Source of the DNA: Paramacrobiotus metropolitanus
Lineage: Eukaryota > Tardigrada > Eutardigrada > Parachela > Macrobiotidae
DNA length: 64,000 bases
Direction of reading: 5' to 3'
Assembly (NCBI RefSeq): GCF_019649055.1
Contig: NW_026570364.1
Coordinates: forward strand, 124,001 to 188,000
The notes under the pieces were generated by a model, which was not told the origin of the DNA, made no database searches, and worked only from the letters and a program-made list of their open reading frames with translations. Shown piece by piece: positions 23,255 to 64,000 of this stretch (position 1 is the first letter of the stretch; each line of letters starts with the position of its first letter). The position numbers and the translations under genes are program-made.

Positions 23255-24585
23255 ATTCGATAACGTATTTAAATTTCACACAAAAATTACTTCTTTAAAA
23301 ATTCTTATAAGCAATCCGGAAACAGATATTCGAATAAATCCCCAACAGTCGCCCCCGATCATAAAGCTTATGAAAATCGTGATCCCCGTGATTGAATATT
23401 GCCACTGTGTAAAGGCGTGTGATGACAGCGAGCAAGAAGTCTAGCAACACTACTATACAGCCGACGATGTTCCTTTTACTTAATTGTAAACCGTCAAGTT
23501 TTCCGATCGATGGCTGCCGGCGCGATCGAGCGAGCTGGAAGTGTGCCCAACACAACACAGAGTGCCAATTGTGTTGTACATACTCCTATACAGTATTCCG
23601 TATACTTTTTCGAGTACGTATACATGTACGAGTTCCGCACATATATATATTTTTGATGAATTCCGACCATTTGCTGTTGCAGTGAATAAATGCCTATCAA
23701 CCCGGCCACTGTGAACTTGAACCCTGGTGGGTGTATTGACGCATGGCATTGATTGCTGATGATATTCGTTACTGTGTGTCTGTGTGCATATTAAAAAGCG
23801 GGAGAACGTAAAACATATGAAACATGTGTTGGCCTGCTGTTTTGTCAGGGACTAGGAATTTTATGATTGTATTGTTTGCACATGACAAAAGCCCGACGAG
23901 GGAGATTATGGTGATTATTGTGGCGTATCGCTATCGGAAACGGACATGCTGACTGTTTCGAATTATTCACGGCACATTCTGATTATGGTTGCGTAACAAA
24001 GTCATATATACCATCCACTTAATAGCTGTAGCATTCCAGCATATAAGCAGAATTTATAAGCATAATCTCGAACGGATAAACGTATTTTTGTCGAAGCCAT
24101 TTTTCTATAAAGGATGATCTCTTAGATTACATGTATATATCCTATTTTCTAAAATATTTTTTTATTTATGTTTGCAGAATAGTTTTAAAGACGCAGTTCC
24201 TTCTACTTTGGATGTGGCCGACTGACGATAAGAAAATCATTTTTAATTTTAATCTACTCACATTATTTTTATTTATTTGACTCACACTCACATTATTCCG
24301 AAATGTCATTAAGATTTTAATTTGCGTTTTTATACTTATTTGTGTATCCGTATTTGGAATTTTACTAAAGAGACAATTTTTTATAGCGGAATGCCGAAAA
24401 GAGGTTTAATTTTTGCCAGCAGAACAGCAGTTCGGCATTGCACGTACACAATAAACCAAGCGCGGCAAAATAATAAAAGATTGCGCAATCCCAATTGCAA
24501 TTATGGTAAAATAAATGCAAATGCATTTCTTGTGAATTTTCCCGCGCATTTGCGGCACGAAGGGAATGATTGTAGCGCGATTGCA
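23255..24585. other. spacer between annexin copies 1 and 2
   Basis: No exon supported. AT-rich, with several TACGAG/GTACGTAT words around 23610-23640. Confidence 0.45.
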
Positions 24586-27469: not shown

Positions 27470-28827
27470 TTCCGGTTAAGGTTTTTTATATAATGATTAA
27501 TGCGAGCAGGATACCAGCCAGCCGATGCACAGTACGCGCACGACGAAGATAATCTTCAGGTGTTAGGAGAAGAACACGACCAGCTGCTGCTGCACAACTG
27601 AACGCCCCATCGAATGTCAAGTACAACTATAAAATTTTCCAACCTCGGCAGTCTGGCTGGTAAAGTCAACACAATGACATAAACCGTCATTACGCTCGCA
27701 GGCAATTTTTCCGCGGCACCTGTATAGAAAACTCGTCCAGACAACACTTCGCCGGCACTGGAAATATGCGCGCTGGAGATGTTATGTATGTACTCGTACA
27801 TTATTCCGAGTACCGTGATTTTATTTGAAGGGGTGTGGTACGTGTGAATGTATTCATGTATTTAATGGGTATTTCAATGTGTCGAACATGTCTTGCCGGT
27901 AGGTTTTTAACAGGCACTTATAACGGTAGAAATTTACAAAAAAATGCGGCAGACTGTAAAATCGAACGCATATACGAAAGAATATGTTTTGTTTCAGTTG
28001 AAGTACGGATTATAGATTTGTCGATTAACGGGGATGCCGCAGCTGAATCGAGACGTCTTTGAAAATTAATGTAAATTATTAATTCCAGTATTAAATTACC
28101 AGAATGGACAGGTCTAAAACTTTATGACCAGCATGTGGTAATACGTAGGTAGTATTCAAACTGCACGATATGATTATATAGCAAATGATGCGTATTAAAT
28201 CCGTGGCTAAGATTGTATGGTTGTGATGAAAAAAAACCCAGCATTCTTATCAAAAATTATTTTTTCATGATCAAGAAAGATAACTTCGCGATGCTCACTT
28301 AGCGCACAGTACTCAGCAAAATTAATATCGGTATAACCATAAGCCTTTTGGTGCATCTGCATGTAGTTGCCAACGTACAGGGCCAGCTAATGCCACTAAC
28401 CTACGATTTCCATAGTATACTGTAAATAACAGAAACTCATCCTGCAACGGATTCAGCTTATCAGGAGGATTGTTGAACTACAATTTATAATTATGACATA
28501 AAATGCATCGCAGAGGCTTTTAATACCGGACTGCTGATCAAAAGGAAAAAAATCAAACATTTCCGTGAGAAAATAGCAAAGAACGTTATTTTTAAAATAT
28601 TGACTGATCATGAACAGTACTTAAGTTTAATTTTTACCGATTCCATGCCGCTAGACTACGATATCTATGTTACGTATGGAAACATGTTCCACAACCAGCT
28701 GTGTTTCAAGTGTTTCGCAAAATTAATAGAATAATCCAAATAAATGCACATAATTTTAGTACGTCGTTTGTTTCAGGAATGGCACAGCTTTCTGTGAATT
28801 GTTGGAGGTCAAATGGGAAATGGAAAC
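27470..28827. other. spacer between annexin copies 2 and 3
   Basis: No exon or repeat supported; it likely holds the promoter of copy 2. Confidence 0.45.
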
Positions 28828-31565
28828 TCATGGGAAATGCTTTGGAATCTTGATGGCGTTACCGCGAGCCAAAGCCAGCAATGCTTTCTTGTAGTTTCCA
28901 GATGTTTCGGACTATTCAAAAACATCTTGCGCTAATCAGTCAGTAATTTTATAATTTTATACTAAATCAGTTAAGTATTTAACGACGTTGCGGTACTAAT
29001 TCAACTTACATTGTTAGCAACGGAAATGTAGGTATATGGTGCACATACATACCTCGATTAACTTTTCCAGTGATTGCTTATGCAGACGCTGATATTCATC
29101 GGCAATGCGTCCCAGATCAATCTCAGAGCGGGACACGATGACGAAATTCAGTTTCTTCTCGTCCGTACCCAGTCCTTTCGTAGCCGCCACCAGCTGGTCG
29201 CTGAAAAACTCCGCCCTTTTCCTTGCCGCCTTGACTACAATTATAAATTGCACTTGATGTTTTCCGGATAAGCAAAAATATTACGTTTTAGCACAAATGC
29301 AATTTTAATGACTACGACTCGTTTCTGTTGCACATAATTTATCTAAAATTCTCAACATGTACCCCCGTTTGGATTCACTAATGATGTGCCACTTCTCTAC
29401 ATTTTCACTCCGAATACCAGGTTACCTTCGGTTGTATCATGACAGATGTAATACAACTTAATACCAAAAACATAGTACATACTGAATGCTAAAAACCCTT
29501 TTTCATCGTCGCCTTTCATTGCATCGGTAACATGTTGCTCGATGGACTTTTTGGCGATAATTTGGAAACGATGGAAGACCTTGCGCAGATGCGTAAAGCT
29601 GCGCGTTGCGAAGATGCCGGTATAGGTGGGCGAGTCTACTTTGGATCCGAACAGAGCCCGTGCGTCGTCCAACACGCTCTGGTCACCGCGAGACGCACTT
29701 TCCCGATCGCGTTCTTGCTGTTGCATACAAAAAATATTTGTAAATTAAGTTCAAAGGATGCACGATTTTTCTGTAACCTTCTCTTACCATAAAGCAGTTT
29801 CTCAATAACTGTTCGTATAGTTGACCTTTCGTAACCTTTTTCAGCTCCTCCAAAGGGTCCTTGTTGAATTCTGCATCAAGTAGATTATTAAAGTTTCGTC
29901 AGAAAATTTCAAGAAAGCGTTAATTCGTACTGGAACCATAGACTTCCAACAGTTCGCGTATTTGACTGTGGTTGCGCGTGAAGGCGATCATGTTCAGCAA
30001 GCCATGGTCTTTATTCTGTAAACCGATTTCCGCATCTTTTAGGTGACAGATATATTAGACACAGATATAATGAAAGTAATAGTGTAATTGTGTGATTTTA
30101 TTGGCATATAAAATAGCTATATTCGTTAATTTCTGTTTTTTAACTACGAAATTCTTTCAATTGTCGTTAGGTATTACGGTATGCACCCAAATATCGGTAC
30201 GTCCGATTTAAGACCAGCCACTGGAATTGATTCAGCCTCACCTTGAACGCATCACGCAGCATAATGGCATCGTTTAGAGCCGGTGACTGCATCAGTGTCA
30301 CAATCACGTCCTCGAAATCGCCGGATGTTTCCGATTTCAAAACACTAATAAGATCCTAAAGAACGAGCAGAAAGATTTAACGATATAGTAATGCTACGTG
30401 TATAATAACCCGGTGATGACTGAATTTGCCTAGTCTGTGCAATAAAATTTTGTGAAATACGTGTGTGGGCATTCAGTTCTGTTAATATTACATAAGTTCT
30501 ATTGTATGAACTTTCGTAACACAACAACACAAGTTTTAAAATGTTGCCGTACCTTGCGGAAGCGCTGTTCATACGCCTGAGCTATTGCTTGTCGCTGATT
30601 AAATGTACGGTTGCAAAGAATGTTAATCACCGCTTGTTCGTCGCAACCTAAAAACGACGCGGGCATGTACAATTTGCGCTTTTTTTATTTGCTGCATAAT
30701 ATTGTTTTGAATAAAGATGCTGTGTACGTCGCCAACTAATACATCTAATTTCTGTACCCTTCGATTCGGAAGACGGTTTAGCTCAACCGCGATACAGGAT
30801 AGATTAACTCAAATAAATTATTTTATAATAATATGTAAATAGCATATAGCATTTAAATTTTACAGTTTGGCGTAGGCTGTTTTGGGCACAAATAAATTTC
30901 AATGCAATCAAGCTTTCACAACAGCAGCGTATCAGAAAACTTGCAGATATCGGTTGATGTAAAAATATTTTCATGAAATTGCTAACCTATGTGATGAAAA
31001 CGAAAGATTTGCTTGATTAAATTAAAGCAAAATATGGCACCAGCTACTGTTCTCGTAGGCCCTTTTAAGTTTTCACAGAGTTATGTAAAAATTCGTAGTG
31101 TAGTGGCCGGCAAAAGGTACGATCACCTTCTTCGGCGCAGTAAAGACGACGTGATGACCGAAAATTCAACCTACGCTCATGATAGTATTGATTTGATAAC
31201 ACGGCTTAATAAAAACTATTTTTATGAAAAATTTGATACTTCCTGCAATTTAAATTATTTATTAGTCTTAAAAGGAAAACCCGTATATGTATCGTACGTA
31301 CGCACGCAGCAGAACACAAACAATCGAAGCTGAGCCGAATATGAATGCTGTAATTACTACCAAGCGTAGAAAACGCCGATGCAGTTTGCGCAACTCGCAA
31401 TTTTATGAAAGTTTATGCGTTTTAACATTAACTGTATGAGAGCGATTTCTTTAAAAATAACTTTTTACCTCGTCCCTTAACCGCCTTCTCTATGTCATCC
31501 GCATCCTGGAAGTGGTTGAAATGCTGATGCGGATAGACAGTGGGCCAGTCGGTGATATTGTCCAT
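28828..31565 (-). CDS. annexin (tandem copy 3)
   Basis: Eight exons (5' to 3'): 31469-31565, 30553-30647, 30242-30355, 29931-30015, 29788-29870, 29483-29717, 29053-29234, 28828-28911. The start is MDNITDWPTVYPHQHF. Repeat I: KGRGCDEQAVINIL and SGDFEDVIVTLMQS (identical to copy 2 in this part). Repeat II: NKDHGLLNMIAFTR. Repeat III: VLDDARALFGSK, TYTGIFATRSFTHLRKVF. Repeat IV: KGLGTDEKKLNFVIVSRSEIDLGRI, ending SETSGNYKKALLALARGN and KHFP. Like copy 2 it keeps GxG-type loops in repeats I and IV. Repeat III has a 4-codon shorter opening than copy 2. A cytosolic or membrane-associated calcium/phospholipid-binding protein is expected. Confidence 0.93.
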
Positions 31566-32939
31566 TTCCGGTCAAAAACGGCTTTTTCAGATTGTTTCTA
31601 ATTGCGCAAAGGTTACAAATCCTTTGTAGTACACAAAAGGCCCAGGGTGAATTTTTAATTTATTGACGGCAGAACGCCCCAGCTCGCTGCGTGAACAAAC
31701 CGCATGAAAAATGTTGAACACACTGTAAAACTTCTCAACGGAACGGAAATGTCAATACATCGGTATATCGATCTTCACGTTGCGCTTGCAGGGAGTTCTT
31801 CTTCGCACCTGCCAAAACCTGTTTTCCAACAAACCACTGTGCAATATACTTTTGCAATTTTTACCGGTGCGCTTGTTGTGCAATTTGTTTAGGGGAGGTG
31901 TGGTATGTGTGAAAAGTATTTATGGGTGAACTATATGGCGAATAGTTCGTAACACCAGCGCCAGACTCTTGTAAAGTGGCACCTGGTTGCTTTGATGCTG
32001 CTCGACATTTCATCAGCTCATTATATTTGTATAGCGATTTATTGTAAATGCACCCATGAACAACAAAGCTTGATTGGTGAGTGAATGAACCGATTCTCGC
32101 CGGAAAAAGAAGAATGATGGTGCCTGTAAAACTGAGAAGGTAGATTTGAACTAAAATTTTGATTTTAAATCATAGTTATGTATATTTGACTGTAATGGTT
32201 TTCAGGTTTTTGTACCATAACACCCGTAAGTTGGAAATCGTAGTGTAGTGGTCGGCAGCTCGTCCAACCAATAATTTGCTTGTTATACCTATTGTCAGTC
32301 GTATAGAAATTGCATTTAGTAGAAGTATAGACAGTTGTTCGATACAGATGTGTCGAAGTTTACTAATTTTTTCACACTTATGTGACTGATTAGCCAAAAA
32401 TATTTCCAAGCCATTGATGGCTTAGAAACGTAATTAATTAAGTTATATACTGTAGGCCATTTAATTTATCGATGCTTTGGTTTTAGAAATTACTCTGCCA
32501 ACTTACTCAATTGATACTGTTGTGGTCGATTTTTCCTACATTAAAAAACAGTTTGCACTTAAAAAAATAAGAATGTACACAAAGAAATCTTGTTTGAAGG
32601 AAAAACGTACTTGCAAAGCTGCATAGATTTTATTAAGATCACTTCATTAGACTCAACGTCAAACTGTATGTTTTGAAATACTCATAAATATGCCGAATAT
32701 AAAGCTGCTCACACTAACGTAGTGTTCCCTAGTTCAGTGTAATAACATAATATTAATTACCGTATACTATTAAAACAAATTAATTAGCAGTTATGTGTCA
32801 TCCGAGCATGGTCCCATGGGGCACAATAATACCGACAATTATCAGAGGTAGCATGCAGCAAAAGCGCGCAGTGTGCCAAAATGTACGTTTTTGTATGCAG
32901 GTGATTAGAAGTTTAATCAGGCTCCATTTGTCAGTAATA
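31566..32939. other. spacer between annexin copies 3 and 4
   Basis: No exon or repeat supported. Confidence 0.45.
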
Positions 32940-35900
32940 TCAGGAGTGATCCGGTCCTTGATGCTTTGTCAGCAGCGCCACGAGGAGACGTTTGTGATCA
33001 CCGGATGTTTCCCGCTGTTCAATAAAATTTACGTTTAAATGCTATTAAAAAATCTTAATAAACACAATTTTGACTTTATTTCCAACCGCTAAAACCGCGT
33101 AACACGCCGATATGAACGCGCTGCGGGATCCCTACGTATTCGAAATTGTTAACTGACTGTACGAGTACAGTGTGTAGTACACTTACGCTCGACAATCAAT
33201 CAGCACATACAAAATTCAAATTTTCCCGCTGAAAGTTCAAGCGTTCCTTAATATATTAAGATTAAGGTATTTTTAATTTTTTTAAGTAATAAAATTGCAC
33301 AAAATTAACAAGATTTTAAGAATTCGGACAATAATACAGTATTTTGTTTTGCTTCGATTAAATGGTTTGGCTGTTACAGACTTCCCGTTTGATTAAGGGA
33401 AAGCTTGTGTACGAGTTATGGATGTTAATGACGTAGGAATACGTGAAGACGTACCTTTATGACAACTTCCAAAGAACTGCGGTAATTTTGCTGAAATTCT
33501 TGATTCACACGTTCTAGAAGATGATTATCCGCCAGATACACTATGGTTCTGGATAATGCCCGGTTGTTTGATTTGACAAAGGCATTGTGCAGCTGGTCCG
33601 CATAGAACCGGTAAGGATTTCTTATGTAATTTACTGCAACCAAATACAATCCGTAACGTCGCGGAAACGTGTTTCCTGCAGTATTTATTTCTTATTTCTA
33701 CCATTTCCAGCTTATTCTAATTTATTTGTAAAATTGTATTAAGTCTGCAAATTTTCTCGATATAAAACACAGCACATGCCTCAAGTATATCTATATACGA
33801 ATAAAATAAACATAAAAATAAGTAAATACAAACAAACATGGTGCGAATTCTTTTTTTACAGATTCGAGTACAGAGTACATCTCGGAATTAGGAATATTAT
33901 ATCACTCACTGCACATTAGACTTACCCAGCGTTAAAAATGCCTTCTGTTCGTTTGGATCATCGAATTCAAATTTGATTGATTCCTCTATCGTCATTCCGT
34001 CGGCAATTTGAGGGAAAATGTCGAATACTTGATGCAAATGCGGAATACTGCGATTGGTTAGGATTTCGATGTATTTTCTCGTATTGGCGTAGGCATGCTT
34101 AGGACCGCACTCGTACAGAGTCTGTGCATCGAACAGCGGATCATCCGACAAAATGTTGTCGGTTTCGCGGGCTTTCTGTAATTCAAAATTTTTTTTTAAA
34201 TAATTCAAAGGCGCTGATGGTTTATTGCGGTTGCTTGTTTACTTTAACATAAAAGTTAAATTTGAATATTGTTATATTTGCTAATTTTGCGTTTTAAATT
34301 GTTGCAGTTCTTTGACCTCAGCAACTGTGTAAGCCGGTGCATATATTAATACCCGGGCCTCAATTACTAACCATCAAAATGCAATATAAAAGCTCCCGGT
34401 GATGGCCACGGGGCTTCAGCTCCGACGCAATATCGTCTTTCAATAATCGATTCTGTTCTAAAAAGCAAATAAATCATTGTACACGTTATACAATCCATGT
34501 TGACCCATGTCGTTAGTAGCGTACTTCGGCTGTAAGTAATTTCCGTTCCGAATACGAGGTTCTCGTATTTACTTCCGATGATAATACCATTTACCAAATC
34601 CATGTCTTTCTTCTTTCCCTATAGATTTAAAAAAACATAACAACAGATTACATCCAGTAGGCCAACGTTTACTTTTCTCCTATAATTGAAAAAGACCAAA
34701 AAATCAGGAAAAGTTACGTAGTATACACTATACAGTAAAGAGTGGCTCATTTTGTAATACTTTTGTGACCACTTCTATGCTTGTATTACTGTAGTTTGTG
34801 ACAAATCGTTGTTTACAACGTAATAACAAAACTCTTTAAAAACTTTTCAAAAAATCAGCGATTTGATAGATAAATAAATCTGCACAAGAAAAGGATTTGC
34901 TTTTGCATGTGGTTCACAAAGAACTGACGATCACAAATACAGTAACTGATGAATGTTATAGTCTTATATATAAAACTAAAATACTTTTGTTTATGCGTTA
35001 CATTTCGGTAAAAATATTTTTAATTTGGCGCAAAAAATAGGCAAGTACCTTTAACGCTTCGTGTAACACGAAAGCATCTGTATCACTGGAGTCTTGCATT
35101 AAAAATTCCAAAATCTCTTTAAAATCACCGGATGTTTCCGAGCGGAGGACATCTAATAACGGCTGCAAAAGAGCCCAATTTCATTATCGTACCCCGGAGT
35201 GTGCGTGCCACAGCTGATGCGCACGCGGCAGCCGGCGACTCGTATATTGATCAGATTGTTCATTCATTGTGCCAGCGCATGTAGTGGTCAGTTGTTTCCG
35301 GTTGTTAGCCACTTGCACGGGGGACGGGCTAATCAACGCCGGGCCGCGGCTATTTACCGCCTCATGATTCTCCAAATGTGGCCAGTAAATTATCGATCGC
35401 CGTGTTTAACAGCCAGCATTTTGGGGAAATTAGAATTTCTACTGCTGCACGAGATATATACACGGCAGCAATCAATAGACCATCAATCATGCCAGCAAAG
35501 TGCCTGGTTGTATACAGACGACAAGGCGCGCTTCGTCAATATGGTGTAGATGTATTAACAGAAAATGGAGTACGTGTTAGTAAATTGTGTACCTTGTTAT
35601 ACTGGCGTCGGTAGGCGCGCTGTAATTCCGCACGTTCCTCCACTCTCAGCCGGGATAATGCGTCAATGATGGTCTTCTCATCGGTACCTAGTCATTACCG
35701 ACACCAAACTTAAAGCGCACCCGATGCGGTACATTGGCGTTTTCTCACTGGGAAGAAACGCTCAAACCGGCAATTACGTAATGCACTATTCATGGGCAAC
35801 TAGCGCGACGCATCATATGTGATTAAAGTTTAATGCAGACGCTTTCGCTCTACTTAATTATACTGCTGCATGTACGCCGGTAATTGCAAGCCTTGTAAGT

Positions 35901-38519: not shown

Positions 38520-41049
38520 ATGCACAATCTGCCGTTTGCGTCCTTACTCGGTGTTATGTGCTTTGCTGTCATCAATGGCGTTCTCTTGCCAAATCACGGT
38601 AAGAACCTGCGTTTTTGTTTCGCTAACTTTATGGTAAGACGCGTACTTCAAGTATCTGAGGTGGTCTAGACAGCTTGCGTATTGCAGATGCCAGCAAAGC
38701 TGACAGGATTTCAGACTTCGAACCAACAGAGCATACGTTCCGCCTGGCGAACTATTATCAAGACGGTATGGTTTTACAATGCGGAGAGCCCCCCGCTTGG
38801 ATCTGGGGATATGGACAACCAGGAGAGGGTGTTGACATTGTGATGGATGTGGATATAATTTCGACACGTGTTAACGGTACATTGTTATAATTTTCTTTTC
38901 ACGACATTGTCGAAGTGGCATGGTTTTATGATGTTTGTGACATTATTAGAACACGGGATCTGGGCAGCCGATCTGTGGTTAATGCCGTGCTATAATGAAA
39001 CTTTCGATCTCGAAATTTCGCAGTATATTCGAAAGACGAAGAAGGTGACGACCATCTATCTGCGAAATGTGCGATTTGGAGAAGTGTGGCTGTGCAGTGG
39101 TCAGAGTAATATGGCGTTTCCCGTTGACCAGGGACGTCACCGTGAGTATTACAAAATTTCTACTAAAAACACGTGGTGCTTTAGTGCTTTAACATCCACA
39201 ACAAACGGGCTAAACCCTCGACCATTACAATGCAACTGTTGTAGTAATAAACCAGTAAAAAAACAGTCTGCAGTCATATTCCTCTAAATGGGAAGTCAAG
39301 TGAAAGCACAGTATAATTTCTCAGTACTCTCCGAAGTTCAGGACTAGTTCCTTAATAGGTTACCAGCTCAGGTGTTTTTCAGCTATAGTGGTTTGGTTTT
39401 ATACTTACGTTTGGTAAATTGGTGTCAACATTTGAAGTTTCTTGTAACTTAGATGTTTAACGGCACGAATGAACTGGAAGCTTCAACTCGGCTCGATCTC
39501 TTCAAAGTAATGAGAATCCTCCCTTCGGAATCGCCACACCCGCTAAAAGAACCCACAATTATGCTCAACTGGACGAGGGCTAATCCACAGGTCCTGCGGG
39601 AATTTTCGGCAGTCTGCTGGGCAACAGTGCGCCGTATCTACGAAGATCTGCGGAATCGATTTAGTACGTTCCTCGCTCCTTGTAAATGGGTGTTCCGTGG
39701 TAACCTTTACATTACCAGCATGCTTTTAATTCACAGATGATTCTGTCCCCATGGGACTGGTCGGAGCGTACTACGATGGTACACCAATCCGTGCCTGGTC
39801 TCCACCTCAGGTATTCAGCAAGTGCCGTTCCACCACCAGCACAACGAACAGCAGCGAAAATCAGTTTAAGGGCCCGGAAAAAGACTCCGTACTGTGGAAT
39901 GCGATGCTTGCGCCTTTGAAGTTTATGACCTTTAAAGCCATACTGTGGTACCAAGGGGAATCGGATGCCGCTCTACATCCGGATGCTTATGCCTGCATGT
40001 TTGAGAACTTTATTTCCACATGGAGAGAATCGCTTACGTACTGGAGTAAAACGACGCCCTTTGGATTTGTGCAGATCGGCTGCCAAAATAACGAGTCAAT
40101 ACCGGATGGAACGGCGTTAGTCCGCTGGCATCAAACGGCCGATTACGGTTACGTTCCGCAGAAGAAGTTGTTACGAACTTTCATGGCCGTGGCTATGGAC
40201 CTCCCGGACCCACATTCGCCCTATGGATCGTAAGTGGAATTTAGGACAATATTGTCGTTCCGCCACATATTACTGCTAAAATGCAAGCTGCGGAAACACT
40301 CGATTCTCTGATTATTATGTACAAAGCCTGCGCGTGTAAAAACCAGTGCGACCATATGGTGCAAAACCGATTTTCGGAAAGAAGACTAGGGTAAACGAAA
40401 TCGGGATTTACCGTGCAACAATGTGCACGATCGATCAGTTTTATCACTGATGCTTAGTCACATGGTCTACTGGTCTAGCTATTTCACGAAAATATAACGT
40501 TTTTGTATGTATAGTGTTATATGCCTTGTACAGAATTCATCCGAGGTACAAAGAGGAGATTGCGCAGCGTCTGTACACCGGAATTATGTCCGTTGTGTAC
40601 TACGTGCACAAACCCTTTCAAGGTCCCTTTCCGCGACGTATTCAGCTGGTGGATCGGCATGTTTTCATTCAGTACGACCAAAGCATTAACTTCATATGGA
40701 ATAGCACGGACACATTTGAAGTAGGTTTTATTAGTCTCTGAAATTTGCATCGCATTTAAAAGGTCAATTTTTGGAGGTGTGCTGTGAAGTGGATATAACG
40801 GGTTCCGACAGCTGGAAACGTTGCAGAGGGTGGCACGCAGTCACCAGCGAATTTACCACAGGAGGTGATGAAGTCAAGCTCAAAACAGGTCCGTGCAGGG
40901 ATAGGGCACGCTTTGTCCGGTATGCGTGGAAGTTGACGCCCTGCGCATATAAGAACTGTCGGGTCTATGCCACCGATGATCTGGGTGATGAGCGAGGGCT
41001 ACCAGGCCCACCATTCGTTTTACCAACGAACTGGATATCTGAGCAGTAG
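38520..41049 (+). CDS. SIAE: sialate O-acetylesterase
   Basis: Seven exons: 38520-38598, 38688-38876, 38950-39141 (3' edge uncertain), 39453-39663, 39737-40229, 40534-40720, 40777-41049. The start MHNLPFASLLGVMCFAVING is a signal peptide. Family landmarks in order: FRLANYYQDGMVLQ, WIWGYGQPGE, EVWLCSGQSNM (catalytic Ser in GQS), FNGTNELEAST, MGLVGAYYDGTPIRAW, AILWYQGESDA, then SPYGS-IHPRYKEEIA (catalytic His). The enzyme removes O-acetyl groups from sialic acids in the lysosome or outside the cell. The donor closing exon 3 is not settled: a GTGAGT at 39142 has a good sequence but the wrong phase, while an earlier GTTGAC keeps phase but trims four residues. The stop is followed by a 79-bp tandem duplication. 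It is convergent with the receptor cyclase locus. Confidence 0.88.
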
Positions 41050-45000: not shown

Positions 45001-48000
45001 CGGTGAATCCACAGAATGGTTCATTTGGAGGTGGTTTATCCAAATACGGCCACTCAATGTCAGCCACAATTTTTGCTACTTGAGCCGTCTCAGGGAAGTC
45101 GACCACTTTCTGTCCAGTAAAACAGAAGAACGTGATTCTTAACAATAACATTTATACTTTTCATGACATATTCATACACATAATCAATTTATTATATACT
45201 CTGTACTCAAGAGTGCGAAATTGCCTGATTTTCGGTATTTTAGGCATATTCTTATCTAGCTGTATACAAAAATAGCTGTATAGAAAATCACATAGTTATG
45301 CTGTTGATTTAATTACCACAAAAATGCCGGTATTGTAGCGAAAATTGTATAGCTCGTAATGGCCACCAAGATTATTGTGCGCGTCGAGGGTGATTTCACC
45401 ACGTATCCCATGAAACGTCCGATTAGTGAAGCGATTGGCCACCTTCCTTCCATCGAAAATATCTTCCCCAGCCGCAAGCGTTTCGTTAACCACTTGACCA
45501 TAAGACAAAATGGCGTCATAAAACCCAATAGCATGGATGTTAACCTGGAATTTGCATTCATATTATGGTAGACGTTTATCGCTTCAATCGATATTGCATA
45601 ATCGAAAGAAAGATTACATGTGCACACGATTATATTTATTATCATTATTTTCCGGATTTGGTTGTCAGAATAATATATAATTTTGGAAAGCCTTGATAAT
45701 TATACCTCGTCATATGGCGGAATGGATTGGTTGTAATCGCGTATAGCCATTTCTTGTACCGTACGATCGAATTTTCGAAATTGCGGTGAAGATGGTATGC
45801 GTTGCTTAACCAGAAACAAACTGTGATACGCCTCTCGTGCATCCTACAATCAAAATCGTTTTTTGCTCGTATGCCATTTTGCTCCAGTAAGAGAAACGGA
45901 ACGCTTAATCCAGAAATACAATTATAATACGCATAGGCTCTGGATCCAGTGACGCAAGAGGTTTAATTTATTTACTAACCATCGTGCCGATCAACAAACA
46001 CAACAATCAACTAGAATCTGATTACATACATCGTCACTTTCTAATCCCATATCCCATCTAGGCGTGTCAAAGTAATTCTTCGTTTTGAAATATGCACCGG
46101 CAATAAATATGAACACGTCTTCCTTTAATGCGCTTTTAATGTGTTGCAGCAGCACGCATTTCAGTTTGACATGACTGCAAAAGCAGCTTTTTACAAGATA
46201 CTAATAATTTATTTATTATGACCATGATGATAAAATGCTGCACATTTTATGACATACGAGTAATTCAAAGCACTCCCAGCAAAGTATCAGGTGCCGTTAA
46301 ACGTAAAAGTCCCATGTACTGCATGTACAGATACATCTCTACAAACTTATTTCAAAGATTTGTATAACAAGAATTTAACATGGATCATCAGCATGAACTT
46401 ACATGATCTCTCTTTGTGTATCCCAAGGAATGCGCAGCTAGCTGCAGGTAAAATTTGTTTACCGATAACAACGAAATGCTACTGTGAAAAGTTAAGGATG
46501 ACACAGTGGTTCTGTGGCTTTTGTTAATGTTCTCAGATTTCTTACCATCAACATTCGGACAACTTTAATATTTCCCATAATAATGATAACTGCAACATAA
46601 ACCAACACGAATCATCGTTGCGCTGAGTCAGGGCAGGTACTGGCTGATTTATCACGTTTCGCATACTTCGTGACCTTTGATGGGCCTCCCGAATAACACG
46701 CACGATATCTGCGTACATGTCGTTCTTGTTCTTAGTCAGGAACACCGGTCGTGCTTTCAATCGGAGATCCGTCTTCTTGGCAAGATACTCGCTCATGGTG
46801 TACATGGCCCGCCACACTGGGTCCTCCACGTCATAAATCCCCGTGACATCGGTCCAGTTGAAAAGTTTAATTACTTGGTAGAAAAATGTGCCGGCTCGAA
46901 CGTGGGTAAAGGAAAAGCCTATGATGTTCGGATAGCGCACGCGGTTAGCCAGAAAAGTGGCGATACTTGACCCTTCCAGAAGCAGAAGATTCCAATCTGC
47001 AACATAACTTTAGCTATCAAAATGGGCAAGCGATAAAAAGTGCTAATGCAGACACACTAGTCCACTAACTCCATAGCTAAATTTGAACATCAGAAAGACA
47101 TCCAGTCTGCCGCAGAGGTGGTTGACTGGATTTACTGTATTACGTTCAAGTGGAACTTATTCTCTGCAGAACGTTGAGAAAATGTGTTTAAAATTATTAT
47201 GGCACAAGGAAAGAAATATTAACGTAACGCCAGAAGGCTATAATTGTTGGTTTATGGAATCGTAAAGAACATTGAGAGCCAAATAAAGAATAGGCATAAC
47301 GGTATAAATTAGTCATGTTTTTTGAAGGGAAACTGAAAGACAGAAGACGCCGGCGGAGTCTTATATCAGCGCAAAGTGCAAAGCAGGATCTGGTATCGTG
47401 CCGGATTGAAGAAAAATTCGAACGATTGATGATGGACATATATTTTTATTTTGTAGGTGTTGAAACACTGGGAGTGTTCGAGCCAGCTGTATACGCACTG
47501 GTACAAAGTACTTTCCCTAAAAGTCATCTCATAGGGGTCCCCTTAAAAGAACCAACGCGGTTATTTAGGTTAAAGAGGATAAAAATTGCTGCCGTTCCAC
47601 TGTTTACTCTTCGGAACACGGAGAAAAAATTACAAAATGCAATACCTGCCGCAAAATAGTACTGCGGAAATCAAGAAATAAATCAATCTTTAGGTCCAGT
47701 AGTAATACCGTACAGTATATTCAATGGTTCAGGAAAAAACGGACGATATCATAATATCCACAAAAATTTAGACTACAGATAACATTTGCTTGGACGGCAC
47801 GCCAAAGGCAAGGTAACTTAATTAAAGTGAGCCACAGGAAAACGAGGTGAAACCGGTGTGATCGTTCCGCGCCGCTGCACTACAATACTCACTCTGCTAC
47901 CAGCATTAATCGAAGAGTAAAAGGATTCTGTTTTGAGACACTCTGCAGTACTGGATTTTGGATATGGGGGTTCTTCCAATGTTCTAAATTGTAATAATGA

Positions 48001-50812: not shown

Positions 50813-52561
50813 TTACACTTTTTTTTTGCATTCTTTTGATTCATAACAAGCATTCACCACGTTTGGGATTTTGGAACTCTTGATGAGGTCGACGAATTCG
50901 GTGCTAATTGTTTTCTTATCGACAGGGACGCTATATCCTTTGATGAGGTAATACATCTCTTCCTTATCACGGGACAGAAGTTTGATTGTTAGGCTTTCGG
51001 TGCGGTAGCGTGTTCCTAATTCAGTAATTTACACATATATCATGGTACAGAGTAGTTAAGTCAAAAAGCCAAAATTCAGTCCGTACCGAAATTTTTGCTG
51101 AAAAGATCAAGTAAAGCGGACCGTGTAGCTTTCTCTTGACTGCTGCCATCGGCTGGAATAGTCTGCACAATTACTCGTGCGCCCGCCACCAGCTTTGCAA
51201 GCCCACCTACAAGGACAAAATTATTGTAAAATGTGATTAGGCAGAACACTTTCTTCCGCTATCAAGTTCTGCGAATAATAATGAATGCAACTACACCGTG
51301 TCCAAAATAGATCGCGGAAGGTTGCAATCGCCGTCAAAAAATATGATGTTGCAAAAATAGTTGCCGCAGCTGTTAGCGGGTACAGTAAATTACGACTACA
51401 TTATACGTACGTACTCGTACTATGATTGCACATACGTTTAGTCGCATCGTCCTCTTGTTTCTTGAGTCGTTGCTCTTCTGCCTCTTTAGCATTCTTCTTG
51501 GCAGCCTGTTCAGACGTTTCAGCAGCAGCCTTTTTTGCATTTGTTCCACATTGTTCTTTAGGAATCTGGTATGCCCGCCATTGGTAAGTTAATCTAACAA
51601 GGAAAAATGATTTTCCATATCTTTTGGCACTTCAAAAGTACGTATTACTTGGCATTCGCTGGATTTTTGAATTTCTGGTCACAAGGAAACGGCTTCGACC
51701 ATTTGGCAGCGTTTAGGTTAGACGCCACGTCCTTAGCTTCGGCAGATGTTTTGCAATCGAAATACTGCATGTCCTTGTTACTGGTAAAGTAGCCTTGATG
51801 GTAAGCTTTCTTCAAATAAATTCAGATAACACAATCGGCAAACCAATAAACTTTCCAGAGAGTAGCCATCTGCAACCGCCATTTACCACTTACCACTGCC
51901 ATGTTTATTTGCTGCAACACGACTACAGTAAATATCAGATTTTCAGGTTGAATTTCTCGTGAAAACTTTTTTGTCATTCGGATACTGTACTTTGAATTTT
52001 CCGTTGCAGGTATCTTGGGAGAAAGTACGGTTAATCGATGCCTGGTCTACGCATTGCTCGAAATAAACGGGCCACCACTCCACTGAATTTAGATCGGCTG
52101 TTGTTGGTGTGAAGCATTCCTCGGAGCTTTTAGGGCACACACTAAAAAAACCGCGACTCTTAAATTGTGAATGAATTTTATAATGTAAGACTTGTTGCTT
52201 CCGCATTTGTCTTACCTGGTGTTCATTGCACGCTTTAGCTGGACATCGCATGGTGGTTGATTGGCCTGACACATATTAGCTTTGCATTTTGTAGCACCGT
52301 CGGCGAGAACACTGGCTTTGTTGGCGAAGTCTAATATTCGAATGTCCACTCTTATCTCATCAGCTGCTGCCTGCAAAACGGGATTATTGCAGTTCAGGCA
52401 CTGCAGCTAGCTGGCTCATCAGCAAATAAAAGCTTTGTAAAATCTCAATTCGCAATTTCTAGATCGACACGGAACTCGTGTCTTTTACGTACCCGAAATA
52501 AAAGGGCGGCGGATAGGGTAAGTAAAGCGAATGGATAAATTGTCGAAAGATCTAGAAGCAT
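50813..52561 (-). CDS. novel secreted Cys-rich family protein, copy 1
   Basis: Eight exons (5' to 3'): 52493-52561, 52216-52370, 51991-52141, 51894-51911, 51649-51809, 51436-51593, 51087-51206, 50813-51015, giving 344 residues with every phase matching. Exon 1 is a signal peptide (MLLDLSTIYPFALLTLSAAL). The mature part has 12 cysteines: CKANMCQANQPPC, VCPKSSEEC, EQC, DTC, YFDC, PC, KEQCG, NAC and ESKEC. A conserved LTYQWRAYQIPKEQCG block leads into a Lys/Glu/Ala-rich helical stretch. The C-terminal unit has RSALLDLFSKNFG, TRYRTESLTIKL, YLIKGYSVPVD and EFVDLIKSSKIPNVV. An NRT sequon follows the third Cys of the second cluster. I recognise no family; function unknown. A secreted or luminal disulfide-bonded protein is expected. 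Confidence 0.72.
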
Positions 52562-53722
52562 TTTATTCAACTTTGCTCGTATAGTATTATGTTTCAAATC
52601 ACAACATCAAATTCTCTTTCTTTTTAGTACGCGCTGGGCTTAGCATCAGTGCACAACGGGACTATGTTAACACTTAATTCGTCAAGTGTTGAAAAAAAAT
52701 TTTCTGCAATTAAGATTTATTGAGAAAGGCATGTGTCGCCTTCAGGTTAGATACTGTCACCGTACAGATACGTGTTACTCGTTTTGCCTGGTCGGACGAT
52801 TTTCCTTTAACTGCAGATGTACTAGAAGATTGCCAGTTGTAAATACGAGTATATCATACAGCATTAAAGAATGTCTTGCAAAAAATTTATCTCTTTCTTT
52901 TTATTGATGCGACCGATCCCGGCGCTGCAGGCCATAAATCATACATGGGCAGACAGAAAACATAATACAATTTATTTTATAGTGATAATTGCACGTGACT
53001 TATCTAGAATAAAGTCACTTTATGTGCCTACTACTAGGCTACTAGTGATGCTGCCTACCAAACTGGCTAATCAATGATCATTCTATAGTACAGACTGTAC
53101 AGTACTGTACTTAGAAACTTCACCATGATTTAACGGCTTACGAATCTCACCAGTATCACGGTCAGTTCGATGTGCGCTGAAGTGTTTAAAGATAAGCGTT
53201 TGCGAAGGTTGATAATTATGTACTCGTATACTTGTACATGAAATTAGCATGTTCTGTTCCATTCCGTTTACTTAAAGGTTATGCGGAACAGATTTGTACT
53301 TTTTGCAGTCTGTAGCACGTGGTGGATTTCTTGTTTTGTTCTACAGTCTCACACTTTTGAGTGAATAAGGAGCCAGCAAATTCAGAAGCAATTCTTCAAA
53401 AAAAAGCATTGTTAGGTTTGCTTGTTTTTTAACATTTTTTAGCCATTTTTAGATCAACTGCACTTCAAATCCGCTTCTCTAGCGGTGGTTATCCCAATAA
53501 AATGCACTACTTATATGTGTATATAGTCTATACTTATATATGCAAGAAACTACGAAAATTAAAAGTGGGTGCAACCGCGTATAGTTCAAATGTACCGCAA
53601 ACCTTCCTAAGTAAGCATTACCTTTTCTCATTTCTCTTAAGTAGAAACTATTGCCATTTTACCACATCTTTGAGGGAATTAATGACTGAATACAACGGAT
53701 TACACCGTGGTGAATATTTAAT
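52562..53722. other. spacer between Cys-rich copies 1 and 2
   Basis: No exon supported. Confidence 0.45.
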
Positions 53723-55590
53723 TTATTTCGTTTTGCAGTCTTTCGATTCAAAGCAAGCGTCCACTACGTTTGGAATTTTAGAGCGTTTGATGAGGTTGAC
53801 GAATTCGTTGCTGATTGTTTTTTCGTCAACGGGGACGCTGTATCCAACGATAAAATAATATTTTCTTTCCCTATCGTGGGACGCAAGCTGGATTGTTACG
53901 TTTTCGGTGCGATAACGTTTACCTGAAACAATCAATATGTGATACCACAAGCACGCAAAGCTAAGATCACAAGACTGTACCGAAATTCTTGCTGAAAAGG
54001 TCAAGTAGAGCGGAGCGTGTTATCTTTTCTTGATCGTTGCTGTCTGCAGGAACGGTCCTTACAATTACGTGTAAGGACACCAATAACTTTGCCAGACCAC
54101 CTTTAACAAGAAAATTCATTGTAAGAAGTATATTAACTAAACTACCGCTTTACGTTTTTCGGATAAGTCAACGAGTAGTAATTCAAATGTAATGATAGTT
54201 TTTGCATAGTGCACTTCCTGTTAATCTCTATATTTATAAATAATTTAATTGCTAGTAATGTTTCTGGATAACTGCCGCACCTTTATCTCATAAATCATTC
54301 ACAGCGGTTTTATCTATATTTATTAAAACCACCTGTTGCGAATGTGTTGAAAACAAGGTGCGATAGCTGGTTAGTGAAAGGTGCGATAGTTGTCAAAACA
54401 TCACCAGGCGTTGTTTCAGCTGTTAACGTAACAAAAATGTAATGTATCTTACGCTTTTTTGCTTCTTCGTCCTGTTGTTTAATTTTTTGCTGTTCCGCCT
54501 CTTTGGCAGCCTTTTTAGCAGCCGCTGCAGCAGCCTCTTTAGCTTCTTGAGCGGCCTCTTCCGCTTTTTCTGCAACGGCCTTTCTTGCGTCCGCTCCGCA
54601 TTGTTCTTTGGGAACGTGGTATGCTCGCCACTGATAGGTCAACCTGATAATATTTCAAGCCAAGAATTGTCAGGAATACGGTTGGCGCTTTCAACAGTAT
54701 CTTACTTGGCATTCGCTGGATTTTTAAACTTTTGGTCGCACGACATGACCTTCGACCATTTAGCAGCGTTTTGATTAGCTGCCACATCGGCAGCGTTACC
54801 GGAAGTATAACAATCGAAATACTGTATATCCGGAGCAGGATTGACATAGTATTGTGCGTGATAGGCATGCTTCAACCAGACAACAGTATCAAATTTTTTT
54901 TGCATACCGCGAAAAAGGTAGCCAGTTGTAAACCGCTTCTTCACTTACCACTGGCAAATTTATTTTCTGCAGTAAGATAACAGAGTCACATTTTGGCTAA
55001 ATCTGAAAGAAATGCCTAAAAGAAATATCATTTTCTTGCGTACTTTGAATTTTTCGTTGCAAGTATCCTGGGTGAAAGTGTGGTTAAGCGTTCCCGGGTC
55101 CACGCATTGATAATAGTAAAAAGATTCGTAGTTTACTGATTTTGGATCGGCGGTTGTCGATGTGAAACATTTTTCTGAATCTTGGGGGCACACGCTAAGC
55201 AAATTGTGGCTCTTGAACTCGTTAACAATTTCAGAAGTAAGGTTTTTTATGCGGCTGACTCACCTTTTGTTCATTGCGCGCTCAATTCTGACATCGCACG
55301 GTGGTTGATCGGCCTCACACCGATTAGGTTTGCATTTTGTAACACCGTCAGCTAATACACGGGCTTTGTTGGAGAAGTCTAATACTCGAATTTCTACTCT
55401 TATATCGTCTGCCGCTGCCTACGAAATCATTTCATCATTTTACATCCAATCCCCAAATATTACAAATTGGGGATGCATCGAGAAGCGAAAAAAAAATCAT
55501 AACGTAATTCAGTTCTTGCCTCTTACTTACCAGAAAAAAAAGGGTGCAGGATAGTGTAAGCAAAGAAAGTAGGAAGCTCGGGAGATGCAT
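53723..55590 (-). CDS. novel secreted Cys-rich family protein, copy 2
   Basis: Eight exons (5' to 3'): 55531-55590, 55264-55418, 55044-55194, 54949-54966, 54706-54869, 54453-54643, 53981-54100, 53723-53922; 352 residues. Exon 1 encodes the signal peptide MHLPSFLLSLLTLSCTLFF. All 12 cysteines of copy 1 are kept (CKPNRCEADQPPC, VCPQDSEKC, YQC, DTC, YFDC, SC, KEQCG, DAC, SKDC). The block LTYQWRAYHVPKEQCG is followed by a longer Ala-rich run (AAQEAKEAAAAAAKKAAK) than in copy 1. The C-terminus again has SALLDLFSKNFG, RYRTENVTI and VGYSVPVDEKTI. Exon sizes match copy 1 except in the linker, micro-exon partner and ends. Likely secreted; function unknown. Confidence 0.72.
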
Positions 55591-56926
55591 TTTATTCAGA
55601 ATTAATATCGGCAATCCTAAAATGAATTTATTTGTGTCCGTACCACTAGTTAGTGCGCAGACGGCTGATTTTCAATACAATAATTTGGCAGCTATAATTA
55701 CATATACTCAGTTGCTGTCCATTATGTTTTATTAAGCAGGACTTACGTCGCCTAAAGGGCGTTGATGTGTCTAGCTTTTCCAAACAAGTCCCAATACTGT
55801 CATACCGCTAAAATGTCACAGAAAAGTCTCGAAAAAAATTTTTTTAAAGAAGCGGCCAACCTCGGCGCTGCAGGTCATAAAAGTGGTCAAGAACGACAGA
55901 AAATAATTTATTGCGATAGCAGCAAATGGCACTCCTAGAACATTATACAAGCGTACCACATTTAGTGGTACTGACATTAGCTTTACCAGACAAACCTAAA
56001 CGGCAGACAAACCTTAACAGTGTGGATTCTAATAAACAATAATGATTAATGCGTTCTGTGGCAATTTACTCCGTATGCATAAGCGCCATCATTCTTGGCA
56101 GTTGCGGTTCCTGACTAAGCTGCAAAGGCGGCGGCTGCAGTAATGTCGGCAAAAGCCGTTCACAAGAAAGTAAGAGAGACTGTTTTTTTCCGTCAGCTAT
56201 TAACGAAGCTTCTAGCCCGGCACACAGTATTTATTAATTATAATATACGTATTATTCGAGCAAAAGTACTCTGTACTACGTATAAGGGATCATCATTTGC
56301 TGAAAATTCGCAAAACTTTTCGCTTCTCGCAAAATTACTAACGTTTTGTATGTATTGCAGAGCATACTGCTGACGTGTGTGTCTGTGCGAGGGTATGAAC
56401 TCGTATATTGGGTTTGCATGCGAAATAATATCTGGTAAGGTCTTCCGAATGTTGTGCGCTCCATGTCCGGCGGCATATTATAATTATTTGCCCTATCGTC
56501 ATAATCAAAAAATTATTCGATAGACGAGTGTAACGAACGAATTTAAAGTACTAAGAACTTGATCAGACACGTAATCTAAATACGGTCGGACTCAACAGCA
56601 GTATTCTCACAATTTGTTTGCCCAGAAATATGAAAAAAGCATGTCTACTGTATCCGAAATACGTCTAATACAGTCTGAAGATGCTGTCATATCGTATTAG
56701 CCCAAAGCGGATTTTTTCCTAACATAGACAATTCCTTGCCGGTTACTTTCAAGTTTCAAGTTGCCGGTTACTTTCAAGTTTCAAGTTTCAGGTCTGGAAA
56801 TGCACATGGAATATTAGAACGTATGCAGCTAAGGAACTGCATGCAATTCAAAGTACGAGGGATTGTTAAATTAGTATCTTTCATTTAAATTTCAAGCATC
56901 GCAGCACATTGCATGAGCTCGAGTTT
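55591..56926. other. spacer between Cys-rich copies 2 and 3
   Basis: I looked here for the missing last exons of copy 3 (RYRTE and SALLDLFSKN blocks) and did not find them. It contains the 25-bp tandem duplication at 56736-56785. Confidence 0.4.
56736..56785. repeat. 25-bp tandem duplication
   Basis: TTGCCGGTTACTTTCAAGTT and the rest of a 25-bp unit is present twice without a gap (56736-56760 and 56761-56785), followed by a partial third piece TTTCAGG. Confidence 0.9.
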
Positions 56927-58401
56927 TTAGATTAGGAAAGGGGCCTCTTTTGGTTCGGCTCCACATTGCTCTTTGGGAATTTTGTACGCTCGCCACTGAT
57001 ACGACAATCTACAATGCAACGTTTCGCAATTATTATAATTTAATTGGAGGAGTAGCAACAACACCAAGGCTCACTTTGCATTCTCCGGTTTGTTATACTT
57101 TTGAGCACACTGTTTGGTCTGCGACCATTTGGCAGCACGTTTGTTTGAAGCCACATCAGCGGCGTTGCCGGAAGTCAGACAGTCAAAAATCTGCATATCC
57201 TTGTCTTCGGCCGAATTAAACTTCTCTTGATGGATTACTTTCTGTGGAAGAGTACATAAGCATACGGTATTAAATAATTAGGGCATATAGTATCATGTAC
57301 ATCTAACGTAGTTGTTCCTTGTTATGAAGATAAGGACATAAATTTCGTATTCACTGTATACTTAAATAAAACTCGTACTGTACGTTACCTACCAGCTGCA
57401 ATTTCGTTTCCTGCAAATAAAAACCCAAGGACGGTTAAGCGGTTGAATGAACGATATGTAAATACGTATGCACTACGTACGTATGTACATGAGTACACTT
57501 TCTATGTACCTGAAATTTTTTGTTACAGTTATCCAAAGATAGAGTGCGATTAACAAGCGCTTGATCCGAGCAACCTTTGTAAAAAACAAACCGCCATTCC
57601 ATAAATTTTGGATCGGTAATCGGGGAACTAAAGCATTGGTCGGAGGATTCGGGGCACAGTCTAAAATGACAGTATATAAGTTAGCGTCTGTACAACACTG
57701 TGCAGTTAGCACTATAAGTAAACAGTCAGTAGACTTTTCGGTAAATACATATTGATTTAACTATTTAACAAGACGTCCGCAAAGCTGTAAGGAGTATATC
57801 TGATTACTGCTGCATTACGTACCTATATCGTAGGTACTGGGTTACGGTAATTATGAGCTCTGCCACAAGTGGTGGTTTGTCGCAAAATTACTGCTAAACA
57901 ATGGAAGCGTTAAGAAGCAAGTACGTGCAGTTTATATTGTGCAGTTTATTGTTAATACTGTACTCGTACCTTTTGTCCACTGCGCGGGATAACCGAATGT
58001 TGCATGTTGGTTCCCCTTTTGTGCAGAACGACTTGACTGGGCATTTTGAAGTTCCGTCGGTTAGAGCGCGGGCCTTGTTAGTGAAGTCTAGCAATTGGAA
58101 TTCAACTCGAATATCATCAGCTGCTCCCTGTCATATGCAGATTGTGAGCTGGATATTCTGAAGGCTTTCGTAAACACTAGTAAGAACATACTGTTCTGCT
58201 GTAGGTGAGTTTAAACGTATTAGCGCCTGACAAAAAATCATATATCGACATCCAGAGTGTTTTTGGGCAGATACCGGTACCAACTAATCAGTAGGTAATA
58301 AATAGCTAACTACCAAACATACGATCGGGTTCCCACCATAGACGTACCAGAGTTAGAAGGGCACCAATGACAAAAAGATTTAAATCCCATTGGAAGAGCA
58401 T
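56927..58401 (-). CDS. novel secreted Cys-rich family protein, copy 3 (truncated)
   Basis: Six exons (5' to 3'): 58348-58401, 57970-58127, 57510-57660, 57393-57410, 57075-57241, 56927-57008; 209 residues. Signal peptide MLFQWDLNLFVIGALLTL. The first ten cysteines are kept (SKCPVKSFCTKGEPTC, LCPESSDQC, KGC, DNC, IFDC, QC, KEQCG). After LSYQWRAYKIPKEQCG the frame ends EAPFLI and a stop. The helical linker and both C-terminal exons of the other copies are absent. It is either a shortened but expressed gene or a 3'-truncated pseudogene; the retained splice sites and open exons favour the former or a recent loss. Confidence 0.6.

Positions 58402-64000
<5,599 letters not shown>

Follow-up and report, generated by a model that had tools for sequence, protein, structure and literature searches.

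Three related genes follow one another head to tail, all in minus orientation, in a 64,000-nucleotide stretch of the genome of the tardigrade Paramacrobiotus metropolitanus (assembly GCF_019649055.1, contig NW_026570364.1, positions 124,001 to 188,000; hereinafter the window, from whose first nucleotide positions are counted). We propose that they encode secretory-pathway proteins of the tardigrade-specific Mn-dependent peroxidase (AMNP) family, belonging to a branch in which the metal-binding site has probably been dismantled, and that two of them additionally carry a C-terminal module shared with a distinct set of repeat proteins.

The gene models were built by spliced alignment with a strict intron cost (Table 1). 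The reading frames are open in all three copies and GT...AG boundaries were recovered at 19/19 introns. The introns common to the three copies, which enclose a mini-exon of 18 bases, have the phases 0,2,0,0,2, and copies 1 and 2 have two additional introns, each in phase 1. The N-terminal exon is hydrophobic in each copy, with a best 10-residue hydropathy of 2.4, 2.2 and 2.7 in copies 1, 2 and 3, respectively. The cysteines total 12 in copy 1, 13 in copy 2 (one of them within the predicted signal peptide) and 10 in copy 3, such that the predicted mature forms of copies 1 and 2 have 12 each; the lack of the C-terminal unit accounts for the lower number in copy 3. A TYQWRAY..PKEQCG block is present in every copy (as SYQWRAY in copy 3) and, within the trio, the LDLFSKNFG and GYSVPVD motifs are restricted to the C-terminal unit of copies 1 and 2.

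Table 1. Coordinates of the three genes, of their parts and of the tandem-unit genes related to the C-terminal unit. Positions are those of the window unless preceded by a contig handle; residues at the metal-ligand positions are given in the order 92/98/131/161/163.
Feature	Position	Strand	Details
Copy 1, gene	52561-50813	-	344 residues, 8 exons; modelled by spliced alignment, introns checked for GT-AG; metal-ligand residues K, D, C, H, G
Copy 1, exons 1-4	52561-52493, 52370-52216, 52141-51991, 51911-51894	-	
Copy 1, exons 5-8	51809-51649, 51593-51436, 51206-51087, 51015-50813 (including stop)	-	
Copy 1, AMNP-homologous region	51436..52370	-	exons 2-6, about residues 24-203; profile match to 7DBT/7DF2
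Copy 1, exon 6	51436..51593	-	end of AMNP region and 37-residue linker, 70% A/K/E/Q
Copy 1, C-terminal unit	50813..51206	-	exons 7 and 8; phase-1 intron after KNF
Copy 2, gene	55590-53723	-	352 residues, 8 exons; modelled by spliced alignment, introns checked for GT-AG; metal-ligand residues K, D, C, H, Q
Copy 2, exons 1-4	55590-55531, 55418-55264, 55194-55044, 54966-54949	-	
Copy 2, exons 5-8	54869-54706, 54643-54453, 54100-53981, 53922-53723	-	
Copy 2, AMNP-homologous region	54453..55418	-	profile match to 7DBT/7DF2
Copy 2, exon 6	54453..54643	-	end of AMNP region and 48-residue linker, 87.5% A/K/E/Q
Copy 2, C-terminal unit	53723..54100	-	exons 7 and 8
Copy 3, gene	58401-56927	-	209 residues, 6 exons, 10 Cys; confined to the AMNP part; metal-ligand residues P, N, C, H, E
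Copy 3, exons 1-6	58401-58348, 58127-57970, 57660-57510, 57410-57393, 57241-57075, 57008-56927	-	
Copy 3, AMNP-homologous region	56927..58127	-	phmmer match to 7DBT, E=2.2e-6
Tandem-unit genes	C67:475876-495320, C23:27979-39907, C57:406650-406811		units of about 90-100 residues

The ratios of nonsynonymous to synonymous substitution (dN/dS, Nei-Gojobori) for the three pairs of copies are 0.23, 0.24 and 0.28 (components 0.211/0.935, 0.388/1.603 and 0.409/1.458) and, between copies 1 and 2, 0.25 for the AMNP part and 0.17 for the linker and C-terminal part. The trio is thus under purifying selection, and it has homologues elsewhere in the same genome. An earlier note on this DNA, made from its letters alone, had described three tandem copies with a signal-type exon, agreeing intron phases, the shared block in each copy and the C-terminal unit in copies 1 and 2, and had taken the genes to be real and constrained; all of this is borne out, and the 12-cysteine pattern it gave to the whole family holds for the mature forms of copies 1 and 2 and fails for copy 3.

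Searches of the Protein Data Bank (PDB) with phmmer matched copy 2 to 7DF2 (E=1.4e-5) and 7DBT (E=1.1e-3), and copy 3 to 7DF2 (E=6.9e-6) in addition to 7DBT. A profile of the three copies recovered the same two entries, 7DF2 at E=2.3e-9 and 7DBT at E=7.2e-8, with the next match at 0.77. Two further phmmer matches of copy 2, at E=0.082 and 8.1, were to unrelated proteins and were dismissed as chance. According to PMC9145152, 7DBT (with 7DBU) is g12777, the AMNP of Ramazzottius varieornatus, which localizes to the Golgi in HEK293 cells and displays peroxidase activity with Mn; its family has 35 copies in R. varieornatus and 39 in H. exemplaris, including tandem duplicates, with the core domain set inside variable architectures. 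The same source reports a very weak similarity of the g12777 structure to C2 domains (Ca2+/lipid-binding). The best profile match of the trio, 7DF2, is likewise named a 'C2 domain protein', for which our literature search returned no paper; sequences very similar to it are found on contig C11. The trio itself shows no sequence match to a C2 model.

The disulphide cysteines C91-C97, C146-C225 and C176-C200 along with W194 and R216 of 7DBT are all kept in copies 1-3 (in copy 1 as C52, C64, C120, C150, C174, C200, W168 and R191). The 7DBT chain number plus 58 gives the number used in PMC9145152, a relation consistent at 13 residues named there. Thus, in its hydrophobic signal-type exon, AMNP region, three-disulphide cysteines, W194 and R216, as well as in belonging to a tardigrade gene family with many copies and tandem clusters, the trio resembles g12777 and its family. 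It departs from g12777 in the replacement of D92, D131, D161 and D163, in its extra cysteines and, in 2/3 copies, in the linker and C-terminal module: the crystallised domain of g12777 ends at Leu231, just past C225, where, to judge by the printed primer, the protein itself probably ends. On these sequence grounds, we assign the N-terminal ~180 residues of the trio to the published tardigrade-specific AMNP/OG0000231 family. The assignment is one of descent; we do not class the trio as AMNP Mn peroxidases because D92, D131, D161 and D163 of g12777 are replaced in all of its members.

No Pfam or NCBIfam model matched the trio proteins above cut-off, there being sub-threshold matches only. However, two AMNP paralogues of the same genome, including one with the full Asp site, equally lack a real Pfam match, so Pfam seems to have no AMNP model and its silence on the trio was not counted as novelty. 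Hence, the claim of the earlier note that the family is unrecognised falls with the clear matches to 7DBT and 7DF2, and its statement that the pattern is not known from any family survives in part, for the C-terminal unit, which has no Pfam or PDB match (see below). Its proposal of a lineage-specific secreted protein family stands, AMNP/OG0000231 being tardigrade-specific and export being predicted. In the genome searched (169.8 Mb, 533 contigs), the 7DBT query yielded 58 exon matches at E<=1, in 35 clusters on 16 contigs, with 25 clusters on 15 contigs at E<=0.05. Many of these clusters are single exons, one contains a pair of genes, and in one case a single gene is split in two; clusters on C144 and C99 come in addition to the 35.

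The Mn ligands reported for 7DBT in PMC9145152 are D92, D98, D131 and the A96 backbone, and those of the Zn form are D92, D98, D161 and D163. In the trio, the CD-CD motif housing D92 and D98 is broken (K/K/P and D/D/N in copies 1/2/3), the Mn ligand D131 is Cys and the Zn ligands D161 and D163 are His and G/Q/E. We compared these positions across 19 models of at least 105 residues out of the 25 modelled in the fetched genome regions, leaving aside six shorter ones (four on C11 and two on C66 near 221 kb). Cys at 131 is seen in 7/7 and His at 161 in 6/7 of the window and C99 models; the C99 models by themselves have C131 in 4/4 and H161 in 3/4, the fourth showing a gap, with His in an alternative model. 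Neither residue occurs at its position in any of the other 12 models (0/12 for each), where position 161 is Asp in 11 and Glu in one, and 9/12 keep Asp at 92, 98, 161 and 163 alike. The exceptions read S, S, D and gap (C25_1074289) and D, D, E, D (C25_1102040) at these four positions, and the sister gene C25_1077088, introduced below, reads E, D, S, D, N at 92/98/131/161/163. Position 131 is Asp in three of the 12, Asn in eight and Ser in one; the loss of D131 on its own is therefore a weak test, since 9/12 of these models also lack it. It is the joint change of D131 to Cys and of D161 to His that, by this comparison, marks the window/C99 branch.

A second cysteine absent from g12777 sits in the CD-CD loop of the three window copies and of C99_455048; the loop of C25_1099692, by comparison, has the canonical motif. 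As D92, D98 and D131 bind the same ion in 7DBT, C131 would adjoin this loop, and the two extra cysteines could form a disulphide over the old metal site.

Maximum-likelihood analysis of 18 genome models together with 7DBT (19 rows, C99_461379 left out) unites the genes of the window and of C99 in a single clade with support 100/99, to which C25_1077088 is sister, again with support 100/99. The latter gene ends directly after the AMNP part (SIPSRECGRQL and a stop). As the tree is rooted at its midpoint, the direction of change is inferential; the simplest order would run from the Asp site to its partial loss, then to the His/Cys change with the extra cysteines and the gain of the C-terminal unit, then to the long linker, acquired in the window cluster, and, finally, to the loss of the unit from copy 3 and C99_461379. 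An AMNP copy at C99:462040-462700 has an early stop followed by a remnant of the C-terminal unit in another frame, which we interpret as a second, separate loss of this unit.

In copies 1 and 2, the AMNP region is followed within exon 6 by a linker dominated by Ala, Lys, Glu and Gln; exon 6 of copy 2 contains a 12-base tandem repeat at 54497-54543. A resemblance of the copy 2 linker to LEA repeats was considered, and no LEA model was found among the Pfam matches. The C-terminal unit encoded by the last two exons is carried by copies 1 and 2 and by 3/4 of the C99 genes. In a profile comparison, the window and C99 units were matched at 95.9% with a score of 51.9, whereas none of 30 column shuffles exceeded 16.3. 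A single-sequence search of the genome with the copy 1 unit reached C99 (E=0.16 and 0.32) as well as C52 (E=1.75). Its best match outside the AMNP clusters, C88:396571-396837 (E=0.024, 28% identity), contains three internal stops. The units gave sub-threshold matches only in Pfam, and their profiles found nothing in the PDB below E=0.39. The idea that the unit is a SEA domain (PF01390), suggested by a similar order of predicted elements, was rejected on profile comparison: Pfam gave no match and hhalign a probability of 0.0 against the genome's two SEA sequences, a comparison of low power.

Beyond the C99 genes themselves, a genome search with a C99 unit led to two adjoining weak matches on C67 (E=0.22 and 0.32). 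There, C67:475400-477900 holds an apparent gene that begins with a hydrophobic stretch and contains repeated units, in which two unit halves score 64 and 54 against the C-terminal profile and a third piece 46, as compared to a maximum of 37.8 in 24 background stretches of 2.5 kb. With hhalign, the five AMNP-linked units matched two C67 units at 94.7% with a score of 47.1 (30 shuffles <=16.6; E=5.9e-8 for one comparison), using the script's C99 models and C67 junctions read from the sequence. Joining three C67 units by eye had given a similar result (95.6%, score 50.2, shuffles <=14.7); in these joins, made for one C99 unit and the C67 units, a few junction residues are lacking or changed. The C99 units alone matched the C67 units at 92.8%. 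Like copies 1 and 2, C67 unit 2 is split in phase 1 after KNF; in unit 1, the phase-1 intron lies one residue further on. C67 unit 1 in turn gave 27 matches at E<=1 in the genome, on C67, C23 and C57 and to one C99 C-terminal unit (E=0.26), thereby delineating a set of tandem-unit genes (Table 1) without any real Pfam or PDB match; in the part of these genes examined, Gly/Asn-rich stretches lie between the units. Accordingly, profile comparison argues that the C-terminal unit is homologous to the C67 tandem units, by way of the C99 copies, and similarly to those of the C23 and C57 genes. Unlike the AMNP genes, the C67 gene has no AMNP part in the 2.5 kb examined and, unlike the C67 units, the AMNP-linked ones end in a C..C motif. 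The module is described nowhere in the libraries searched, and the literature text searched mentions neither an AMNP branch without the Asp site nor one with this unit. The layout of the trio may, nevertheless, already be drawn among the variable architectures of Figure S3 of PMC9145152.

Starting from the observed gene structure, homology, ligand changes, clade, constraint and module homology, we favor, with a probability of about two in three, the reading that the trio are secretory-pathway proteins of an AMNP branch with a dismantled Mn/Zn site, two of them with an added C-terminal module. Following predicted entry into the secretory pathway, the first ~180 mature residues would fold as a homologue of the AMNP beta-sandwich of g12777. 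In the window and C99 branch, the carboxylate site would have been taken apart through the loss of D92, D131 and D163 and the change of D161 to His, and cysteines would have been gained at the D131 position and in the CD-CD loop, most likely bonded to each other across the old metal site (C57-C105 in copy 1). With such a disulphide in place, the proteins would have lost the Mn peroxidase activity and would instead serve in binding or as structural components, as beta-sandwiches rich in disulphides. The charged Ala/Lys/Glu-rich linker of copies 1 and 2 would join this part to the second module, making a two-part extracellular or Golgi-lumen protein. Its AMNP head would be held by the module that the repeat proteins also carry, and might thus be tied to whatever these form. 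A more ambitious version, in which a His/Cys site or disulphide lock, a helical linker and an extracellular-repeat module together define a new class of stress or reproductive proteins anchored to a matrix, is in our view speculative, with odds well below even.

Several points weigh against the favored reading. Among the C99 models, C99_463620 and C99_484134 are imperfect and show a single loop Cys, and C99_461379 is without the N-terminal part; because of these defects, the co-occurrence of the two extra cysteines is limited to four genes. The alignment of the loop is itself ambiguous, as its first two cysteines could be the C91-C97 pair, although the CDPKL context in C25_1077088 favors the alignment adopted. 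Copies 1 and 2 retain D98, and metal can be bound by His and Cys as well; hence, an alternative metal site is conceivable. As for the module, the genome searches leading to C67 were without significance (E=0.22, 0.32 and 0.26), and the window units alone match the C67 units weakly (5.8%, score 20.2, with 30 shuffles <=15.9; 13.9% against the units joined by eye), so that the link from the window to C67 rests on the C99 genes and our confidence is slightly lowered. Also, the intron at about the same place in the C99 genes was read as phases 2, 1 and 2.

Two other explanations concern the metal site, neither of which we consider likely. The trio could be ordinary working AMNP peroxidases that still bind Mn via D98, H161, the backbone or other groups. 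That the fold-defining cysteines, W194 and R216 are all kept, that D98 persists in 2/3 copies and that 9/12 of the other paralogues likewise have no Asp at 131 would agree with this, as would the stress induction of many AMNP family members reported in PMC9145152. Against it, no copy retains D92, D131, D161 or D163, two copies having Lys for D92, and changing D92, D98, D161 and D163 to Ala in g12777 reduced its protection of cells (PMC9145152). Alternatively, the ligand swap might have created a new metal or redox site from Asp, His and Cys, either a Zn/Cu site or a reactive thiol. H161 and C131 co-occur across the branch at Zn/Mn-coordinating positions of 7DBT/7DBU, as such a site would have it; but the loop Cys that accompanies C131 in the window copies and C99_455048 fits a disulphide, and D98 is Asn in copy 3. 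This reading we hold to be about as improbable as a working peroxidase.

Decay of the duplicates, with copy 3 as a truncated pseudogene, is less probable still. Copy 3 does lack the linker and C-terminal unit, and C99_461379 is likewise cut short, a remnant of the unit persisting out of frame, but three open frames with GT-AG introns and dN/dS of 0.23-0.28 speak against decay. The notion of a protein family without known relatives could draw on the lack of any Pfam or NCBIfam model above cut-off. It is refuted for the N-terminal part by the significant phmmer and profile matches to two solved proteins and by the equal silence of Pfam on the AMNP paralogue with the full Asp site; it stands in part for the C-terminal unit and, as an account of the whole, has next to no probability. 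We thus return to the AMNP branch with a probably dismantled site as the best account of the trio.

Studies of tardigrade stress count the AMNP genes among those with an antioxidant role. If a whole branch of them is without the metal ligands, AMNP copy number and expression would not translate simply into peroxidase capacity. A single genome here offers a graded series, from the Asp site through the intermediate sister gene to the His/Cys branch with its module, which allows the role of the metal site and the re-use of such proteins to be tested.

Elsewhere in the window, an open frame of 487 residues with a DDE_Tnp_4 transposase domain (841-2301, minus strand, E=3.3e-30) could be a DNA transposon of recent date. 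Two exons that resemble annexin without reaching the Pfam cut-off, with several frames of similar appearance between them (20940-34238, minus strand), perhaps represent a tandem annexin cluster. A Heme-NO-binding-associated (HNOBA) domain, as in guanylyl cyclases, is encoded at 17912-18262 on the plus strand, and a frame at 11615-11923 resembles it by appearance. A sialic-acid-specific acetylesterase domain (SASA, E=6.3e-10) is found at 39730-40230 on the plus strand, and an ANF-receptor ligand-binding domain at 46551-47009 on the minus strand falls just below the Pfam cut-off (25.3 vs 25.4 bits). Finally, an AT dinucleotide run of 78 copies occupies 62939-63094.

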